Of a stretch of DNA of 25,982 nt, positions 1 to 11,300 are shown piece by piece; the first letter of the stretch is position 1; every line of letters begins with the position of its first letter. Position numbers and translations under genes: made by a program. The stretch spans positions 1 to 25,982 of the IMG/VR virus record IMGVR_UViG_3300047480_000320, one strand, 5' to 3'. The DNA is from a virus. The notes beneath the pieces were generated by a model. That model worked only from the letters and a program-made list of their open reading frames with translations. It was not told the origin of the DNA and ran no database searches.

Positions 1-1070
1 ATAATTTTAGAATTTAGAGCTTTACGTAAAGCATAATGAATTACTTCATTTAATTTGAATACTTTACATACTTGCCAGTTAGATGTATGGTCGCTCCATT
101 TTTCAATATAGGTTTCCTTCTCGCTCTTCTCAAAGGTAGCAGCATTACACTTCATGCAAAATTGAGAGTCGCACGACTGACAATCTAAAGGCTGATTCTT
201 TAACGCATCTTTAAACATATCAGTCTTTTCTTTAATAAGAGCATCAATGTCAGGCACATTGCGAATGTTTCCAAGTACGTGAGCATGAGATTCTTTATAC
301 ATGCATCCATGGCACGGGCTGATGTCTCCGTTCAAGTCCACACTAACGTAATTAATACCAGCAGAGCAAAGAGCTCTCGATTGCTGGAACCATCCAAACT
401 TTTCTGGAGGTAATTTGTGAGTATAGATGTGCTTTGCAATCTTAGTTAAGCCAACCTTAAGCTCCTCTAAATGAACTGCAAACTCTTCTTGTGTTAGAGT
501 GGAGTATAAGTCTGGAGTAGGGAAGTAGTTATCTGTTAACTGAATAACATCAAGGAACGCTTCATATATTAAGTGGAAATGTTTTGCAGTCAATACAGAC
601 TTCATATTAACGTTAAGGCCGTTTTGTTTAGCAGCAAGATAGTTTGATTTAACTAGTGCTGAAGATGGATTACCTACTTTATCGATACGTGTGATATCGT
701 TAACAGGCTTGCCATCATAAGATATTTGAAAACGCAGTCTTCCTTGTCCGAGTTCGTTGTGCAACTCAACAAGCTCTTTCATGTACTTTTTAAGATACAC
801 GCCGTTTGTATAGAAGAAGAAAGAGAAGTTTTGATCGTGTTTATACTTCTCAATAACACCTTTACAAAATTCCCAGTTTACAAATGGTTCACCGCCCCAA
901 AAATACACATCCTTTTTAGGATCTGATATTTTAGCCATGAATTCTTCAATATTGTCTAAGGTAACGGATGTGTTTTCTTCGAATTCAGTCGATAGACCGC
1001 ACTCATAACCTTCTGAACAGTATGTACATGCTAAATTGCATGTGCTCGTAACGTTAATGTCAATAACCAT
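1..1070 (-). CDS. Radical SAM/SPASM domain protein (partial, C-terminus off window)
   Basis: The frame is open from an ATG at 1070 to the left edge (356 codons, no stop), so the C-terminus is missing. The N-terminus carries CNLACTYC at residues 11-18, the CxxxCxxC motif that binds the radical SAM 4Fe-4S cluster, followed by GGEP at 59-62, the SAM-binding motif typical of MoaA/anSME-like members. Around residues 233-252 is a C-x12-G-x4-C element. Around 293-305 is CQSCDSQFCMKC, and one more Cys lies near 333. This resembles the seven-cysteine SPASM domain that holds auxiliary clusters, though the spacing (Cx2Cx4Cx2C) differs slightly from the canonical form. SPASM enzymes usually modify peptides or proteins (sulfatase maturases, RiPP maturases). 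The substrate cannot be read here. It is the last visible gene of the tail operon, 35 bases after the dehydrogenase gene, with a weak AAAGAG ribosome site about ten bases before the ATG. Family assignment is firm; function is open. Confidence 0.88.
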   Translation of the reverse strand, partial: MVIDINVTSTCNLACTYCSEGYECGLSTEFEENTSVTLDNIEEFMAKISDPKKDVYFWGGEPFVNWEFCKGVIEKYKHDQNFSFFFYTNGVYLKKYMKELVELHNELGQGRLRFQISYDGKPVNDITRIDKVGNPSSALVKSNYLAAKQNGLNVNMKSVLTAKHFHLIYEAFLDVIQLTDNYFPTPDLYSTLTQEEFAVHLEELKVGLTKIAKHIYTHKLPPEKFGWFQQSRALCSAGINYVSVDLNGDISPCHGCMYKESHAHVLGNIRNVPDIDALIKEKTDMFKDALKNQPLDCQSCDSQFCMKCNAATFEKSEKETYIEKWSDHTSNWQVCKVFKLNEVIHYALRKALNSKI

Positions 1071-1105: not shown

Positions 1106-1846
1106 CTAAATTCCTCTATACTCATCGTTTAGTTCTAGTACGGTATTTAGTAGTTTAATATCATACTGTTTTGCTAAGGCTTTTGTGTCTTTAGGAAGGC
1201 ACGGCCCTCCGAAGCCTCGTTTTCCGTCTGGTCCAGGTACATTGAAATGAGTCGTCCCCATGTATGGGTGAGAAGCCATCATTTGTGTCAGCTGATTGAA
1301 GTCTACGTTCATTTCATTAGCAATATCATACATTGAATTCATGTATGTTATTTTTAAAGCTGCGAATGTGTTTAGCGTATATTTGAATAACGCTGCTGTT
1401 TTAATATCTACTAAGAACGTCTTACCTGGAACTACTGTAGAATATTGTTTGTACATTTGTAGTAACCGTTCAGCCTTCATCACATCCCCTCCTATTACCA
1501 ACACTGGGGGCGTAACAAAATCGCTAAATGATGTTGCTCGGGATAGAAATTCTGGATTATATAAAACATCATATCCATCGAGGTGATGTGGAAGAACAGT
1601 CGACTTAACTACTGTCAGGCCAGTATAACTGCTATCTTGTATTTCTTGAAGGACTTGTTTTAGAACAGCATATTCTGAATCATCTGTAGGCGTGGGTACG
1701 CAGACGAAAATGACGTCTGGGTTTTGCGCACAGACGTCATTTACGGATAGTGTGTTATATAATGGATCACATATTACACTTGTTGTATGATTAAAGCCAT
1801 ATTCTACTGCTTTACCGACCATACCATAACCAATAATACCAATCAT
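1106..1846 (-). CDS. Short UDP-glucose/GDP-mannose dehydrogenase-like protein
   Basis: This is a 246-residue nucleotide-sugar dehydrogenase of the UDP-glucose 6-dehydrogenase family, which oxidises the sugar C6 alcohol to a carboxylate with NAD+. The N-terminus is a Rossmann fold with GYGMVG (residues 6-11). VCVPTPT (48-54), KSTV (81-84) and NPEFLS (97-102, Glu99) follow. In the central helix Lys155 and Asn159 keep the K-x3-N spacing of the catalytic Lys/Asn pair. GFGGPCLPKD (211-220) holds the thiohemiacetal-forming Cys216 and Asp220. The protein stops just after the start of the central dimerisation helix. Full enzymes are about 390-450 residues, so the C-terminal UDP-binding domain is absent. 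The next gene downstream does not supply it. GGAG at 1852-1855 supports the start. It may be active with a different substrate, need a partner, or act in remodelling capsule or LPS sugars. The family is secure; the product is not. Confidence 0.9.
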   Translation of the reverse strand: MIGIIGYGMVGKAVEYGFNHTTSVICDPLYNTLSVNDVCAQNPDVIFVCVPTPTDDSEYAVLKQVLQEIQDSSYTGLTVVKSTVLPHHLDGYDVLYNPEFLSRATSFSDFVTPPVLVIGGDVMKAERLLQMYKQYSTVVPGKTFLVDIKTAALFKYTLNTFAALKITYMNSMYDIANEMNVDFNQLTQMMASHPYMGTTHFNVPGPDGKRGFGGPCLPKDTKALAKQYDIKLLNTVLELNDEYRGI

Positions 1847-1858
1847 ACAAACTCCAAA

Positions 1859-3298
1859 TTATATAATAAAGCACTCCACTAATTTTTCCTCATGGGAAGA
1901 ATTTGTTTGTAGAGCAACTGCGATAGGATTAACATTTCCAACTGTAGCACATCCATTGATACCTGCTACAACTGTTTGCCCTTTTCTGATAGGTCCAACG
2001 ACACGTACAGGCACTCGACCCTTTAGAGCAACTGGCTGACCTTCTGATTCAGCATTCATTAAGTATGCTGGGTTTGTAGATATAACACCGATTGCAACTT
2101 GACTGATATAATCAGACGCAATGCATTCAGCTTCAATTGAGTCGTCAGCAATAACAACAACCGTGCCAGGTATATATTCTTTGTCTGTAGTGTATTTTTC
2201 TGCTAAGTCAGCATAACGAGCGCTCGTAGCAGTTGCTGTTATAACGTTAGCACTGAAGTTGCCGCTAGAATCACGAGCTACGATAGAGCTTGCTGTAGCT
2301 GCATCCGTTGCTGAACGTTGAGCTGAAGCATATAATAATGTGTTAGCTCCAGTAGCTGTACCACTCAAACTTGCAGTAATAACGTTAGCACTAAAACTGC
2401 CTGCTGTGTCTCGAGCTACAACCTTACTTGCTGTGGCAGCAGATGTTGCATCCACTGTCAATGTTATGTTTGATGTAAGAGCTCCTCCACCAGTCATGTA
2501 AGTTCCAGCTAATACTGATCGTGCACATTGATTAGCTGTTCCATTTAAATCGCCAGTAACTCCACCAGTTGCAGTTATTAGACCAGTTACTGCTAATGTG
2601 TTTGAGAATGTAGCGTTACCAGTAACGGAAATTGTATTGGATAGTGTAGCTGAACCAGTAACTGTCAATCGCTCCCCAATACTTGTATTACCAGCAATGG
2701 AAAGGGTGTTAGAAAACGACGCAGCCAAAACGCCGTTGAAGGATCCGCTAACTCTCATTGCACCTGAAACGTTAGCTGAACCAGTTACAGTTAATGCTGC
2801 ATCTGGAGTTGTATTATTGATCCCTACTCGGTTATTCACCGCATCAATAAACAAGACTCCACTATCAAACTGAGAGTTACCGGTACCTACTGTAAGGGAT
2901 GTACCATTGGCGTTTGTAAATTGAAGATTGGCGGTAGTGAAAGTGCCTGTGACGTTAGCATCTCCTGTCACCATGAAAGCAACAGTTTGGCCGAAAGCTG
3001 TATTTACTCCAACGCGGTCGTTTGTGGCGTCAATTAATAATGTGTCAGTATCAAAGGTGACATTAGACCCACCGAAGGCCGCAACACCTACAACTTGCAA
3101 GGCTCCTCCAACGCTTGCAAACCCACCAAATGTTGTGTTACCGGTTAATGTGCTGGTTCCAGATACTTGTAGTGTGCTGCCAACGTTAGCAAAGCCGCTA
3201 ATTGTTGTATTGCCAGTTAATGTGCTGGTTCCAGATACTGTTGCGTTTTCTGAAACGATAAGCCCTTTACGGACTCTGAAGTCTTGAATATTTGCCAT
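1859..3298 (-). CDS. Tail-fibre-like structural protein with conserved C-terminal IMC/Peptidase_G2-like domain
   Basis: A 479-residue fibre-like protein. Residues 1 to about 90 contain tandem 24-residue beta repeats of the type VSGTSTLTGNTT..GFA.VG. The middle has FIDAVNNRVGINNTTPDAAL-type repeats, common in phage fibres, then two copies of a VARD(S/T)xGxFSANVITA motif. The last 120 residues (about 360-479) begin ARYADLAEKY and include PGTVVVI, GVISTNPAYLMN and GRVPVRVVGPIRKG. This end resembles C-terminal domains of marine T4-like fibre and structural proteins, and recalls the self-cleaving Peptidase_G2/IMC chaperone family. I cannot confirm cleavage residues. AAAGGGAAA at 3302-3310 is a good ribosome site. 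It lies between the 244-residue fibre paralogue and the dehydrogenase gene in the minus-strand operon. Its likely role is host recognition or a baseplate appendage; the exact T4 counterpart is unknown. Confidence 0.75.
   Translation of the reverse strand: MANIQDFRVRKGLIVSENATVSGTSTLTGNTTISGFANVGSTLQVSGTSTLTGNTTFGGFASVGGALQVVGVAAFGGSNVTFDTDTLLIDATNDRVGVNTAFGQTVAFMVTGDANVTGTFTTANLQFTNANGTSLTVGTGNSQFDSGVLFIDAVNNRVGINNTTPDAALTVTGSANVSGAMRVSGSFNGVLAASFSNTLSIAGNTSIGERLTVTGSATLSNTISVTGNATFSNTLAVTGLITATGGVTGDLNGTANQCARSVLAGTYMTGGGALTSNITLTVDATSAATASKVVARDTAGSFSANVITASLSGTATGANTLLYASAQRSATDAATASSIVARDSSGNFSANVITATATSARYADLAEKYTTDKEYIPGTVVVIADDSIEAECIASDYISQVAIGVISTNPAYLMNAESEGQPVALKGRVPVRVVGPIRKGQTVVAGINGCATVGNVNPIAVALQTNSSHEEKLVECFII
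3144..3239 (-). repeat. Perfect 24-base direct repeat, 72-base period, in the fibre gene
   Basis: An identical 24-base sequence occurs at 3144-3167 and 3216-3239, exactly 72 bases (24 codons) apart. It encodes the VSGTSTLTGNT-type unit of the fibre. The flanking bases are diverged synonymously, so the protein repeat is older than, or better kept than, the DNA outside the core. Confidence 0.85.
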
Positions 3299-3331: not shown

Positions 3332-4066
3332 TTATGAGAGCATTGTTCTTGCTATTTTGAATGTAGCATTAGATGTAGGAGTTGCAAGAAGACGTACGCT
3401 GCCAGCACTAATGTCTGCATCGAACGTACAGAATGTGGCCACAGTATTAACAACAGCATATTCTGTCAGGAATGCGGTCGTGCCATCGTGTATCAAAAGC
3501 AACTCTTCAGACATATAACCAGTCGAGGAGTCTTGTATTTGTATTAAATACTTTGCAGTTTTAAATGTATTGGCAAATGAATCGACAACAGTCTGCCCAA
3601 CAGTAGCATTTGCATATACTGTGCTATTTGATTGGAATGTTAACGATGGTCCAACATTAGAACGCACTGTTACTGTTAAAGTATTGCTTACAGTTGCATT
3701 ATTAGAAATTGTGGCTGTATTAGAAACGTTTACATCTGTAACGTAAGCAAACCATCGAGCACTAGTAGTTCCTAATGTGACGCCGTTTGCAAGAGGAGTA
3801 GCAGCGCCTCTAAAAGTTGCTGTATTTGCAAAATCAGCTGAGTTGGCATAAAGTTCCCATCGAGCAGATGTATTACCTAAAGATCTACCTGACACGTCGG
3901 GTGTAAAGTTGCCAACAATGTTGGCTGAAAACACCATACTGCCACTAACAGTAAGATCGCCAGCAATGTTAGCAGAACCGGTGACCTTTAAGTCTTGCTC
4001 TATCTCTGTATTGCCTATAACATACAGGCCATGCTGGGTTGTAAATTGTGTATTTCCTGTTGCCAT
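3332..4066 (-). CDS. Tail-fibre-like structural protein, paralogue of the upstream fibre gene
   Basis: A 244-residue protein. It opens with beta repeats (IGNTEIEQDLKVTGSANIAG and similar) and continues with two LGNTSARWELYAN / LGTTSARWFAYVT units, a motif widely repeated in fibres of marine T4-like phages. From about residue 135 a globular beta domain contains AKYLIQIQDSSTGYMSEELL and IHDGTTAFLTEYAVV. The matching segment of the next upstream protein (4073-5011) reads KILIATNGTDSYITEYAVL, so the two genes share a C-terminal domain. The ATG at 4066 is 6 bases from the previous stop and has no clear Shine-Dalgarno, so it probably depends on translational coupling. A virion surface or fibre role is inferred from composition, repeats and position. 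Confidence 0.7.
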   Translation of the reverse strand: MATGNTQFTTQHGLYVIGNTEIEQDLKVTGSANIAGDLTVSGSMVFSANIVGNFTPDVSGRSLGNTSARWELYANSADFANTATFRGAATPLANGVTLGTTSARWFAYVTDVNVSNTATISNNATVSNTLTVTVRSNVGPSLTFQSNSTVYANATVGQTVVDSFANTFKTAKYLIQIQDSSTGYMSEELLLIHDGTTAFLTEYAVVNTVATFCTFDADISAGSVRLLATPTSNATFKIARTMLS

Positions 4067-4072
4067 ATATTA

Positions 4073-5011
4073 CTAAGCCGTTAATGTTATGTTTAAATTC
4101 ATCGACAAGTTTGCGATGTATGGTGTAAAATTCAAAATAACGTTGGTAGTGTTAGAAGTGACTGTATACAATCCTAGATTAGCACTTGTAGGAGCATTTA
4201 ATACAGCATATTCTGTAATGTAAGAATCAGTACCGTTAGTTGCAATCAATATTTTCGAAGCACGGGTTGACGTTGTATTGCCTACACGAGATGTTATATC
4301 TCCCAACTTATATTGAGATTTTAACCAAGTATACACTTCAACAGGACTTCCAGTAGTTGCACCAAGACTTGTCACGACTCCCGTCTGTTTTCCTAATGTG
4401 CCAAATATAATATCACCATACATTGTCGCTGTATTGGCAACCTCAATACTACCATTGAACGTAGTACTAGAAGTAACAGTTACGCTATTAGCAGCAATGG
4501 TAAGAGTGTTACTTTGGATAACAGCACTGTTACCAGCAATAGTAGTATTTACGGAATCGATATCCGTATTTGTGCCGTTAAATAATGCATTACTTGAAAC
4601 AGTGAGTAACCTACCAGACGTAACGACGTTGCCGCTTAGTGTTGTGTTAGATCCAATGCTTAGTGTAGGCCCAGTAATATACATTGCTGTAGCATTGATT
4701 GCTGTGGCGCCGTTCGTGATGTTGACGTTAGCAGTGAAGGCAGCGTTAGCTCCAGCGAATACAGCATTAGATGAAATTGTCAAATTGGCTGCAGCATTAA
4801 CCGTACCACCTCTAATACTAGTACCAACAGCTACTGTGTTCGCTCCAAAGATACCAATAAGGTTAGTATTGCCAGTTGTGTTTGCTCCATCATTAGATGA
4901 GTTGGCAGTAACTATCTCCGACCCGAGAGTTGTTATTAACTGATTTGTCTTTGTAATAAGAGATGAAAATGTATCTGTTGCGATTACAATTTGGGTTATA
5001 TTTTTTGCCAT
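4073..5011 (-). CDS. Tail-fibre-like structural protein (Asn/Thr/Ser-rich)
   Basis: A 312-residue protein, unusually rich in Asn, Thr, Ser and Ala. The N-terminus (ITQIVIATDTFSSLITKTNQ) looks helical and may be an attachment segment. Residues 60-200 are a chain of short hydrophobic/Asn-Thr repeats (NLTISSNAVFAG, NTTLSGNVVTSG, NTLTIAANSVTV) expected to form a trimeric beta structure. The C-terminal about 105 residues share the TxYITEYAVL-type domain with the 244-residue neighbour. Its start overlaps the stop of the 71-residue gene by one base (TAATG), implying translational coupling. The stop is TAG. It is probably a fibre or baseplate appendage; I do not recognise a specific T4 counterpart. 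Confidence 0.7.
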   Translation of the reverse strand: MAKNITQIVIATDTFSSLITKTNQLITTLGSEIVTANSSNDGANTTGNTNLIGIFGANTVAVGTSIRGGTVNAAANLTISSNAVFAGANAAFTANVNITNGATAINATAMYITGPTLSIGSNTTLSGNVVTSGRLLTVSSNALFNGTNTDIDSVNTTIAGNSAVIQSNTLTIAANSVTVTSSTTFNGSIEVANTATMYGDIIFGTLGKQTGVVTSLGATTGSPVEVYTWLKSQYKLGDITSRVGNTTSTRASKILIATNGTDSYITEYAVLNAPTSANLGLYTVTSNTTNVILNFTPYIANLSMNLNITLTA

Positions 5012-5226
5012 TATGTCTTACCGTTCGTTAATATTTCCAACATACGTTTTATGTCGGCCATATCTTGCTTTAGATTGCCTACGTCACTAACTACACGAGA
5101 TAAAGCTAGATCTTTTGCTCTAGCTTCTCTATACGCTTGAAGTCCAGTACTATCAATATTTAGGACAGCTCTAGCTCGCCCTGGCGTATCGTCTTTAACA
5201 AACCCAGAATATTCAGTCTTTATCAT
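5011..5226 (-). CDS. Small conserved tail-operon protein with C-terminal coiled coil
   Basis: A 71-residue protein. The first half (TEYSGFVKDDTPGRARAVLN) is polar with no known motif. Residues about 35-66 (EARAKDLALSRVVSDVGNLK onward) follow a heptad-like pattern of Leu/Val/Ile/Met and should form a helix or coiled coil. The start overlaps the stop of the 683-residue gene by four bases (ATGA), and its stop overlaps the start of the 312-residue fibre gene by one base. This placement, and the absence of internal stops in such a tight operon, support a real gene. Similar short proteins sit next to fibre genes in marine T4-like phages. It could be a fibre chaperone, adaptor or small virion protein; no function can be assigned. 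Confidence 0.68.
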   Translation of the reverse strand: MIKTEYSGFVKDDTPGRARAVLNIDSTGLQAYREARAKDLALSRVVSDVGNLKQDMADIKRMLEILTNGKT

Positions 5227-7274
5227 GCAGATACCGCAATTGCTCTTAAGTCATTTACGTGAGGTACACGATAATCATTATCTGACAACAATACAATCTT
5301 AATGGAGAAATTCTTATATCCATCATAAGCACCAAATGTTGTATTGTAGTATCGAATAATGTTGCTGTTTTGGATATTAATGAAGGCAGTATGCTTATTG
5401 TTAATTTTGTCAATCTGCAATCCAGAAGATACCATGCTTGAGTTTGCAATAGGATCTGCAATTGTTAAAGATGTTGAATCGACAGCCGTCACAAGTGAAA
5501 TAACATGATTGTTTGGGAATGTTGGCTGATATATTCTAACTAAATCGTTCACAGATATTGCGCTATTAACAGTCACACCAGTCCCAACAATTACGTTGTT
5601 GCCTAGCGATGTTGTGTATAATCCGTTCGCTGCAGTACCATCCTGGTACATAGGAACCTTATACTCAAACTCAATAACGTCATTGCGGTTGAAAGGATTG
5701 CTCAATAACCCCTTGTCTGTTACCATCTCAAGGTGAGTCCAGTCTTTATCATCAAACGGCTCTGGGTCTACGTTATTGTGAAACTTAGCGTATACTCTAA
5801 TGTCGGTGTTGGCTGGCTTGTATGCGCTGATGTATATACGCAGATCTTCAGCATCTTGTCCATCAGCTAACACTACACGTTTAGCAATATATTTGGAAGT
5901 CGCATTACCAGAGTTAGTATGTTCTGCCGTATCATCGCTATTGATCTCATATCGTGTAACAAACACGTCGAGATTTTCTTCTTTGGCGTATGGAGATGTG
6001 TATATGTTGGTTGTGTTGAATGTGATTTCTGACTCTAAAGATTTAGAACCATCAAATAATGTAGCTCCATTTAATACTTCATAAGAACGAGAAGCAATGA
6101 CAGCTGGATAGCTATCCATAAATTTAATTTGATTAATCTCTACTAAAGCCTTGTTGCCAGATGCTTGATAGTAAGAAGAGTTAGCAATATTAATCGCTGT
6201 ATTTGTAAAGGTGCCTGCAGGGGTTGTGATATTGAAAGATGGTCTAATGTAATTAGCCTCGAAATTTTCAATATACTCAATTCTACAAGAAGCGCCAGAA
6301 TCTACTCCACGAACATACTCATTGTTGGCAAAATATGCACTTGTGTTGGCAGTTGAATTTTCGAGGGTCAACCGCTCTGTCATTGAATTAAATGCAAACA
6401 CAGTACCTACTGGTGTTTTCAAATATGACCCAGCTCCGTTCGAGAAAGAAGGAACAACATCAACTAACATGTAGGTGTTATTAGCAATGCTAGTTACTGT
6501 GCGCACATCAACGTTACCAGCTGTACCATCTGTTATAACAAACTTGTTACCTACTTGTAAAGTGGACGTGAAAGATGTGCCATTACCGACGATAGCTTTA
6601 CTAGTGGCATTGATAGTTAGTGTGCCAGTGCTTGGAGCCGTATTCTGGTACACATACTCTCCTCCTTTAAAATTGCCACTGATACTATTAGCAAACAATT
6701 TAAAGAATTCATTATAACTATTATTGAGTTTATATGTAGCGGTATTGCTTGTAAATTTAGCAACATTCAGTGCAAATTTCAAATCTGCATCTTTCAATGC
6801 TGTAAGCATTTTACCGTTAGTGATTGTGTAGAAGAATCCGTCTACTTTACCAGAGGATACTTGAGTATTGTTGGTTGTGTTGAGAACCTTCTCACCTGCC
6901 TTGTTCCACCACAGTTTAAAGTCATCATCACTACCATCGAACTTTACAAGTATAGCATATGATTGTGCTGTCTTGATGGCAATAGGAAAATTAAAACTGA
7001 ATTTAGTAGAAGTTGTAGCTGTACTTGTTTCGAATATTCCTGCATATTCTACACGAGCTACTTCCGGATATACTGCATTAAGATTAGGAACATCATTGTC
7101 TACTGGACAGATATAAACAGAAACTCCTGGTTCAAATATTCCAGTTTTTGTTTTTCCTGCAATAGGCTTATTTTTAAAAAACAAGTCGACGCTTGTAATA
7201 AAAATTGTATCAGCTTGTCTTACTGAATCTTTATCGACATAAAAGGTTTGAGCTAAATCAAAATCCGTTGCCAT
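5223..7274 (-). CDS. Virion structural protein (baseplate/fibre-associated), 683 residues
   Basis: The N-terminal about 175 residues (FDLAQTFYVDKDSVRQADTI, then GVSVYICPVD and KLWWNKAGEK) look like a beta-sandwich domain. Residues 214-280 hold a beta module with VGNGTSFTSTLQVGNKFVI, and 550-615 hold a second, more diverged copy (VGTGVTVNSAISVNDLVRI). A related module occurs in the DUF4815 protein next door. The C-terminal part has EDLRIYISAYKPANTDIRVY (476-495) and, at the very end, NFSIKIVLLSDNDYRVPHVN plus DLRAIAV, both typical of large structural proteins of marine T4-like phages. In between, 550-615 looks like an insertion into that C-terminal domain. The start codon overlaps the stop of the 163-residue gene by one base. 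It is probably a peripheral baseplate or proximal fibre component; the T4 equivalent (gp10-like?) is not certain. Confidence 0.72.
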   Translation of the reverse strand: MATDFDLAQTFYVDKDSVRQADTIFITSVDLFFKNKPIAGKTKTGIFEPGVSVYICPVDNDVPNLNAVYPEVARVEYAGIFETSTATTSTKFSFNFPIAIKTAQSYAILVKFDGSDDDFKLWWNKAGEKVLNTTNNTQVSSGKVDGFFYTITNGKMLTALKDADLKFALNVAKFTSNTATYKLNNSYNEFFKLFANSISGNFKGGEYVYQNTAPSTGTLTINATSKAIVGNGTSFTSTLQVGNKFVITDGTAGNVDVRTVTSIANNTYMLVDVVPSFSNGAGSYLKTPVGTVFAFNSMTERLTLENSTANTSAYFANNEYVRGVDSGASCRIEYIENFEANYIRPSFNITTPAGTFTNTAINIANSSYYQASGNKALVEINQIKFMDSYPAVIASRSYEVLNGATLFDGSKSLESEITFNTTNIYTSPYAKEENLDVFVTRYEINSDDTAEHTNSGNATSKYIAKRVVLADGQDAEDLRIYISAYKPANTDIRVYAKFHNNVDPEPFDDKDWTHLEMVTDKGLLSNPFNRNDVIEFEYKVPMYQDGTAANGLYTTSLGNNVIVGTGVTVNSAISVNDLVRIYQPTFPNNHVISLVTAVDSTSLTIADPIANSSMVSSGLQIDKINNKHTAFINIQNSNIIRYYNTTFGAYDGYKNFSIKIVLLSDNDYRVPHVNDLRAIAVSA

Positions 7275-8328: not shown

Positions 8329-11300
8329 ATCGCCACCACCGCCACCATCGCCACCACTAGGAGGTGCTGGATCAGGAGTAATCTTAACCTCGCCGCGAGT
8401 TCTCAGACGGAAAGAAGATGGAGTAATAACAACTGACCCGCCATAATTTGTTTTATTACCATCTGAATTAACAGTCGATGTGGCAAGTTCTTGAGTAATC
8501 AAAGATTCTTCCACGAATGGCAATAGAATGGAGTTGTTGTTGTATATTGCGTTATTTGTCGTTACATCATTTCTACTGAATATGCTATTCAAGTTGAATT
8601 GTTTTGTTTTAGGATGCAACTCACTCAAGCTTTGCTCGATTTTTGCATTGAACTCCTTGCTAGACTCTTCAGCAAAAGTATAGTCATCGAAATCGTCTAC
8701 GAAGAATCCATTTTTAAATCTATTAACAGAAGGGTTTATAGCACTTGGAATTACTAGATCTTTTACTTTTGTTTCCAATAAATTCAAGCTGACATAATAC
8801 TCAAGCTGATTAATACGCTTTTCGAGATTACCAATGTCAGTCATTGTATAACTCTTAGCTTGATTGTTCTCTTCGAAAAGAGATGTAGATATGCTAGATG
8901 TATACTTACCGATACGTGTATTAATCTCACCAAGCTCGTTACCAACGCTCTTATTGAAAATTTGTAGGTTAGTGTTGCTTATTGACAACGGTAATGATGG
9001 ATATGGGCTAGTAGATATAATCGATAGCGTCACACTGTCGTTAGGCTTGCGTGGAGGACGAGAGCCAGTAATAGCAGGCGTACCCTCTAATACTTGGAAG
9101 CTTCCATCTTTCTTTGCCACAACTCTGTCAACACGTGAAAGATAATATTCTGCATCAAACGCGATTTCAGAATCTGGAGTAGGGAATAGCTTATCGTTAG
9201 AATTAAAGCTTTCTGTGTTTGCTGGGTTAATTGGAGCTCCAGACACAGTCGTCGCAATTGCTACTGTATTAGCAACATATGGACGGAAATCGAACGAATC
9301 GCGCAAATCGAAGTATTGTTTATCTGCAGTAATAACTTCTGGAATTTCAACAGTATTAATAGTATTACTTGAAGCTGCTAATGTCTTACCGTCATTTATT
9401 GAGTATGATGAAACTGTTAAGAACCCTTCACCTGAAGATGTGAAATTATCACACTTCACCAACAACCACTGTGTGTTAGCGATCTCTAGTGTAGAAGTAC
9501 TTTTCTTAACAAGATATGATTGACCGTAGAAGTTACCATCGTGTCCTTGATCAATATAGAAGTGCTTTGTTACGTCAAGATCAGATGCAGTGTTGCCTAA
9601 GTAGACGTTCTTCAAGCGAACAGCATCCGGTAATCCTAAAGACCAAGGACCAGTGCTGCTAGCAACGTTGTTGCCAGTATAGAGCTTGATAAAGCTATCG
9701 CGGTGAACTGTTTTTGTCGATTGAACAGCTGTGCTACGCTTAACGTTATATGTAACAGCTGCACTTACAGCGCCACTCAACGTTTCATTGAGATATACTC
9801 TTAGTGTATTATTGTTAGCACCAACAACTACATCGCGATTGTCGCGAGATGCAAGAGGGATAGGGTAGAAAGCAGGAAAGAACTTTTTAATAGTGGCTGA
9901 TGTATTAGCAAACGCACTGTTACTATTAATTGAAATGTGTGTTGCGTTAGTAATACCAGTAACACGACGAATACAGTCAGTTGTTGCATTGGCTGCTAAC
10001 TTTACATAATCACCAACTCGTAGATTGCTAGAGAATGATGTTCCAGATCCAATTACTAAATTAGAAGAAGTAGTAACTGCCACTGTACCAGTTAGGTTAG
10101 CGGAAGCTTCAGCATTAGCTAACGGAACGACAATAATATCATTCTTCTGCGTTAATGTTAAATTACTACTAGCAGTATACGGAAATTGTTCACCGCTTGC
10201 AATCAATGATAGGGTTAACATACCATTAGCATACAAATCAACAGCTTCGTCTGTTGTTCGGTATGTGAAGCTTACTGCATTGGCTACTTTAACAGCGTTT
10301 AGCCCTGTCGGGAAAAGCAAATTACTATTATCAGTATCTTTTAAGGTAGCTTCGTATGCTGATGTTGTTGGGTTGTACTCAAGTACAGCATCAGCTACGC
10401 CGTCGTTTGTGCCATTGTAATATACAGAACGAACGTTGCGGAATACTTTACCAGCAGACATCTTGATATCGAATAGATAAGCGCGATAGATTGCTTCTGG
10501 TGTGCCAGGTTCTCCAGACTCATACACTAAAGATCTAATACGAGCTGTACCAATCGCACTGCCAGTAGGAGTGATTGAAGTAGTTGTTGGAGCGCTAACG
10601 TTTGTTAAGAACGCTTGAGCTGTATCATACAATGAAATTGTATCACCAGACTTGAATTTAAAGTTACCAGCTAACTCTTTAATGCGGATATGATTACCAT
10701 AGTTAGCAGTGATCACTTGTCTATTTTTAGTTAAAGTGTCAGTCGATTTTCTAACATCGAGGTATGTGTTCTTCAGCGTTTGAATACGCTCACCAGAAAT
10801 ATATGCTAATCCAGGATCTACTACAACTGCATTGTGGGTTGTATTAGACAACGATGTGTTACCATCGAAATCCTTATCTTTAGTGATTACCAAAAATTCA
10901 TCCACAACAAAGTCGCCACTAGTTTCACTAGTACGACGAGCAAATTCTTTACCTAGGATATTGTATACGGTATTTCTGTTTTCTTTGTATGGCTCACCAT
11001 TCTTGAATTCTACTAAGGTAAAGAATTCTACGTTTGCTGCAGCATTAGTAGAACTAATAGTCACTAGCTCAGGAACTAATTTCAAACGATCTGCACCAGG
11101 AGCAGCAAAGTTTGTTGTACCTAATGCATTATCATAAAGGGTGCTGTCTGTATTAACGTTGGCTGTTGTTTCAGATGTTTTAAATCCAACCACTACATTA
11201 TTAGGTTGACCAGAGTATTTGTCTACTATGATGACTTGTGGGTCGACGCGTAAAAAATATCCCTTTTGATATATGATACCTTCTGTTGTAGAAAAAGCAT

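Follow-up and report, generated by a model that had tools for sequence, protein, structure and literature searches.

Radical SAM/SPASM enzyme genes are linked to a Cys-repeat tail protein gene in divergent phages: a probable route to a cross-linked tail tip

The radical SAM gene and its surroundings

The window (the whole stretch of DNA that was analysed) is a virus record of 25,982 bases. The rSAM-A gene, at one end of it, ends a T4-like tail operon (Table 1). The upstream genes on the same strand include a virion-type gene for a 71-aa protein together with fibre-like and T4-like tail and baseplate genes. The window also encodes a 1504-aa tail protein, the nearest relatives of which are found in Caulobacter phage Cr30 and rhizobial T4-like phages. 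An earlier note on this DNA had described the radical SAM gene as co-oriented with the fibre genes and tightly following them. The orientation is as described, but a truncated UDP-glucose-dehydrogenase-like gene lies in between. Genes of this kind, of 242-249 aa and without the C-terminal domain, are present in 37 of the 80 rSAM-A loci found by profile scans (see below), even in divergent phages of the hexad class.

Table 1. Features of the window at the end of the tail operon
Feature	Position	Strand	Description
rSAM-A	3..1070	-	Radical SAM/SPASM enzyme; opens the radical SAM island; C-terminus truncated by about 12 residues at the contig end
Truncated UDP-glucose-dehydrogenase-like gene	1106..1846	-	Accessory; 246 aa, comprising just the NAD-binding and central domains
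Fibre-like tail gene	1859..3298	-	479 aa; homologues in other phages often directly precede the module
Upstream tail genes (244, 312, 71 and 683 aa)	3332..7274	-	Context marking the end of the tail operon

The open reading frame of rSAM-A starts with ATG, has no stop codon, and is open at the contig end after 356 residues. The gene was completed from a relative, L002, in which the full-length protein has 368 residues; the number of residues missing from the window protein follows from this comparison. The two proteins are 95% identical, with a dN of 0.036 and a dS of approximately 2. This means that rSAM-A is under strong purifying selection.

The CNLACTYC and GGEP motifs are both present in the window protein, which scored 55.4 bits with Pfam Radical_SAM (PF04055; cut-off 29.5) and 27.6 bits with Pfam SPASM (PF13186; cut-off 21.5). 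The earlier description of a radical SAM/SPASM enzyme closing a phage tail operon is confirmed. Cys11, Cys15, Cys18, and GGE are invariant in an alignment of 42 homologues. The SPASM cysteines had been called near-complete. With the pattern C-x9-15-G-x4-C, then CX2C..CX..C, then C, all seven are present (C235-x12-G-x4-C253, C297-x2-C300-x4-C305-x2-C308, C335), and they are likewise invariant in the alignment. The spacing is a variant one, CX2CX4CX2C, whereas rSAM-B, a second enzyme found in relatives, has the canonical CX2CX5CX3C. An apparent loss of CX3CX2C in some rSAM-B proteins was rejected as a start-codon artefact of ORF calling. The rSAM-A protein opens straight into the radical SAM core, with approximately 10 residues ahead of CX3CX2C. 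It has no N-terminal leader-binding (RRE) domain, and no RRE-type Pfam match was found among the small neighbouring genes tested.

The Cys-repeat tail protein of the relatives

In relatives of the window, rSAM-A belongs to a group of radical SAM genes that stay together, the others of which lie beyond the window. In L002, six other radical SAM genes come after it, as do a glycosyltransferase-like gene and the gene for a tail protein with tandem Cys heptads (CTCNCNY). This protein, often continuing into an S74 segment (SDxRLKxNI) of the intramolecular fibre-chaperone type, is hereafter called REP; the window ends before it. REP from L002 has 252 residues with CTCNCNYCTCNCNYCTCNCNYSCTCNCNYSDKRLKENI, the last part of which is the start of the S74 chaperone domain (Peptidase_S74, 24.2 bits; cut-off 22). 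In many other REPs only the SDxRLKxxI start is kept, or it is absent. The C-terminal part of REP matches virion-structural and tail-fibre families of PHROG. The N-terminal part is variable, with recurring helix-like segments (NxLxxxINxExxRRG).

Two classes of repeat are observed. The heptad class has the pattern C-x-C-[ND]-C-[ND]-[YF] in 2 to about 25 tandem copies; Asn or Asp is found at position 4 in 92% and at position 6 in 97%, and Tyr or Phe at position 7 in 93%. The hexad class, in divergent phages, has about four copies of C-x-C-N-x-x (for example, CICNSD-CSCNLV-CACHND-CGCNYS), usually directly before SDxRLKxxI. In both classes, Asn or Asp is often three residues after the first and the second Cys. 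The codons of the repeats vary synonymously, and Cys and Asx are kept. A chance repeat was rejected, since the reversed pattern gave zero hits and the residues hold while the codons vary.

The position of REP after the tail genes, its S74 segments, and its PHROG matches suggest, with moderate confidence, that REP sits at the fibre tip. REP is followed in 61 of the 80 rSAM-A loci by a small gene (110-245 aa family), the product of which might assist fibre assembly. In L010 (13804-16368) and L022 (9501-11558), three or four REP genes lie in tandem. Their N-terminal parts differ and their Cys repeats are near-identical, which looks like diversification of the N-terminal parts. Downstream of REP, in L002 (14933-21083) and the equivalent stretches of L003-L024, there are up to four additional radical SAM genes that lack a clear match to SPASM, together with glycosyltransferase-like and unknown genes, suggesting more decoration steps.

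Linkage between the enzymes and the repeats

A viral scan for rSAM-A gave 23 loci at 72-95% identity, and REP is present in 21 of them. L019 ends before REP. In L024 (13781-14480), REP is internally deleted and frameshifted relative to the near-identical L006, either through loss in the phage or through a collapse in assembly.

The linkage is also observed when the search starts from the repeat. A DNA pattern of two heptads was found in 31 viral stretches, 21 on known contigs and 10 on new ones. All 10 new contigs carry radical SAM genes (3-16 each), and nine carry an rSAM-A homologue. A relaxed heptad pattern was found in 57 viral stretches versus only three in about 85,000 prokaryote species genomes. 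Radical SAM genes are present in 20 of 25 further records with this pattern, namely, in 18 of 23 virus records (one being the already known CP220) and, on the same contig as REP, in both of two binned genomes. In total, radical SAM genes are present in 28 of the 33 virus records obtained with the repeat DNA, these contigs being metagenomic and partly redundant, with some near-duplicates. Four of the five remaining records (L096, L097, L099, and L113) are truncated no more than about 2 kb from REP. The fifth (L118/G015; 43.8 kb) is not cut: it encodes a 252-aa protein with 17 heptads (9278-10036, flipped coordinates) and has no radical SAM gene, and is so far a true exception.

In the opposite direction, profile scans gave 76 rSAM-B loci and 80 rSAM-A loci. 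A same-strand Cys-rich ORF of the CxC type lies within 5 kb in 72 of the 80 rSAM-A loci (median gap, 431 bp), the Cys-rich threshold being our own choice, and none of 636 other ORFs in the same loci is Cys-rich. The homologues are not scattered; a scatter with no link to fibre genes would have told against the earlier idea. Among the eight negative loci, three (L267, L281, and L289) have a weaker Cys-rich neighbour, two (L019 and L192) are at contig ends, one (L240) has a deleted REP, and two (L291 and L293) are weak enzyme hits. When the loci were clustered at 70% identity, 34 of 39 clusters had a Cys-rich neighbour. At 60 bits or more, rSAM-B is found in 71 of the 80 loci; a third enzyme, rSAM-C, is found in 47, mainly in the heptad class. 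The order of these core genes differs (A-B-C-REP, REP-A-B-C, B-C-A-REP, B-A-REP, and others). Such shuffling in divergent phages means that the linkage is not simple vertical synteny.

The module is not characteristic of phages in general: rSAM-A and heptads are both absent from seven T4-like relatives with the same baseplate gene as the window, and just one of the seven has a radical SAM gene of any kind, although one of the contributing scans matched in none of its records and is alone a weak negative. The radical SAM pairs of Erwinia and Cronobacter jumbo phages were also set aside, being distant and without an adjacent Cys repeat. In Cronobacter phage CR5 (L302 5960-9350), a different radical SAM pair lies near virion structural genes, with an upstream 69-aa protein containing CNGSCSW; this is possibly another phage precursor-maturase arrangement.

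The central idea of the earlier note, that the target of the enzyme is a phage structural protein, has strong backing from this gene linkage in many divergent phages. The candidates that it named appear mistaken. The 71-aa protein has no Cys and the 479-aa fibre protein only four, and neither is what stays conserved beside the enzymes. The substrate is likely to be encoded instead beyond the window edge, by the dedicated Cys-repeat tail gene that lies a few genes downstream in relatives.

Independent support for the link between the enzymes and REP comes from another lineage. The cultured Campylobacter phages CP220, CPt10, CP21, and IBB_35 (Firehammervirus) carry rSAM-A, rSAM-B, and a heptad protein, as the relatives of the window do. 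The repeat protein of CP220 (534 aa, CLCDCNYCTCDCNY...) has the same heptads and is encoded three genes from rSAM-A, with rSAM-B elsewhere in the genome. In the annotated phage collection, this protein is found only in 15 Campylobacter phage records. A search of this collection with a heptad protein gave nothing, probably because repeats were masked; the Campylobacter protein was found via the enzyme. Public annotations of the module genes (CP21_105, WX1, and CP20) look wrong, the repeat protein being named N-acetylneuraminate pyruvate lyase and rSAM-B arylsulfatase regulator.

The presence of 11-12 radical SAM genes in Campylobacter phages was noted in 2010, as was a coding 21-bp repeat (PMC2853527), which corresponds to the 534-aa protein of CP220. 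In the passages of that paper considered here, the two are not linked: a metabolic role is ascribed to the enzymes, the repeat protein is called hypothetical, and REP is not among the identified virion bands of CP220. The suggestion made there (PMC2853527), that the genes are metabolic helpers aiding the infected host under low oxygen, now seems very improbable, in view of the strict tie to a Cys-repeat tail gene across many phages and the lack of a close match to a metabolic enzyme in the comparisons described below.

The probable reaction and comparison with known systems

The top NCBIfam model for rSAM-A, rSAM-B, and rSAM-C is that of the thioether-forming ranthipeptide maturase PapB (NF047865). 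The scores are far below its equivalog cut-off of 340 bits: 75.4 for the window protein, and 77.7, 138.8, and 85.4 for rSAM-A, rSAM-B, and rSAM-C from L002, respectively. When profiles were compared with solved structures, CteB (5wgg) was the best match over the core and SPASM regions (1e-27 for rSAM-A and 7e-35 for rSAM-B), followed by 8vpo and the anaerobic sulfatase maturase. The chains of BtrN and MoaA rank below CteB and the sulfatase maturase. The MoaA model gave only 38.6 bits with the window protein (cut-off 284), under many peptide maturases, which places it outside that small-molecule family. The nearest families are thus peptide and protein maturases, and a close match to a small-molecule radical SAM enzyme, which would have spoken against the earlier idea, was not obtained. 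The matches to PapB, CteB, and the sulfatase maturase make peptide or protein modification involving Cys the best reading.

For this reason, and because sugar genes are optional, a metabolic or nucleotide-sugar enzyme was rejected as the main reading of rSAM-A and rSAM-B. In one form of it, the substrate would be a sugar or small molecule of a nucleotide-sugar or glycan pathway that serves to decorate the fibre or host surface, with REP a mere neighbour. The UDP-glucose-dehydrogenase-like gene in 37 of the 80 loci and the glycosyltransferase-like gene of the freshwater group fit such a pathway. REP, however, is nearly constant where these genes are not, the same loci contain no Cys-rich genes elsewhere, and rSAM-A and rSAM-B fit peptide maturases better than MoaA or BtrN. 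We regard this pathway as improbable.

We consider it quite likely, from gene content and sequence comparison, that phage radical SAM maturases act on the co-encoded Cys-rich REP, most likely by forming thioether cross-links. The linkage strongly suggests that REP is the substrate to which the enzyme set is matched. The maturase set would comprise rSAM-A, rSAM-B, and, in the heptad class, rSAM-C. The N-terminal part of REP may anchor the protein on the tail and act as a leader for recognition. The 5'-deoxyadenosyl radical and the SPASM auxiliary clusters would then be used to link the sulfur of Cys to carbon atoms in the side chains of nearby Asn or Asp, giving thioether bridges. The occurrence of Asn or Asp three residues after Cys in both repeat classes makes links from Cys(i) to Asx(i+3) a concrete guess. 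PapB is known to accept Cys-Xn-Asp spacings with n = 0-6, as well as nested links (PMC9413430).

The thioether is proposed with moderate confidence. The enzymes might modify REP with a different main change, such as epimerisation, a carbon-carbon cyclophane on Tyr or Phe, or another change of Cys, and the dense cysteines might then bind metal or iron-sulfur clusters. The conserved aromatic residue at heptad position 7 would suit a cyclophane, several different radical SAM proteins in each island suggest more than one reaction, and the similarity to PapB is well under the equivalog cut-off. Nevertheless, rSAM-A and rSAM-B match thioether formers best, and the repeats are dominated by Cys and Asn/Asp, which could plausibly act as donors and acceptors in Cys-Asx links. 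A main change other than a thioether therefore seems rather unlikely.

If thioethers are formed, the cross-linked repeats would make a rigid tip or binding surface resisting proteases and reductants. These unrelated phages probably cross-link their own tail tip chemically; a role of the tip in infection is weakly suggested. A broader proposal, which we regard as evenly poised, is that phages of many lineages have a dedicated multi-enzyme radical SAM pathway that staples tandem Cys repeats of the tail fibre into a covalent rod or tip, which other radical and sugar enzymes would decorate. This would be a widespread, previously undescribed RiPP-like system, the product of which is a viral tail adhesin.

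The earlier note knew of no described phage tail modification by a radical SAM enzyme, and our search agrees with this: no report was found in the open-licence literature. If the proposal is true, radical chemistry builds virus particles, of which no description was found in the searchable literature. It would also explain the 5-16 radical SAM genes of some phages, which in the Campylobacter case were remarked on as puzzling in 2010 and ascribed to metabolism. Enzymology would further gain many natural pairings of repeat substrates with their maturases, which could also help in making cross-linked protein rods of very high stability.

Among known systems, the phage set resembles PapB with its substrate PapA and the SCIFF maturase CteB. 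The enzymes share the radical SAM core and the seven-Cys SPASM domain, and a Cys-rich substrate with nearby Asp or Asn in repeated motifs is encoded beside the enzyme (here in the relatives). The differences are that the phage enzymes are far under the family cut-off, that most of them have no N-terminal RRE, and that two or three different maturases are present. The proposed phage substrate is also a large tail protein and not a short peptide. A further parallel is the quinohemoprotein amine dehydrogenase maturase QhpD, which puts thioether bridges into a protein subunit and not a free peptide. QhpD (TIGR03906) is the second or third best model for rSAM-B, although the score (87-96 bits of 453) is far under the cut-off and QhpD is bacterial and without tandem repeats. 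The phage set works like RiPP-type maturation, and is outside the PapB family by that family's own cut-off.
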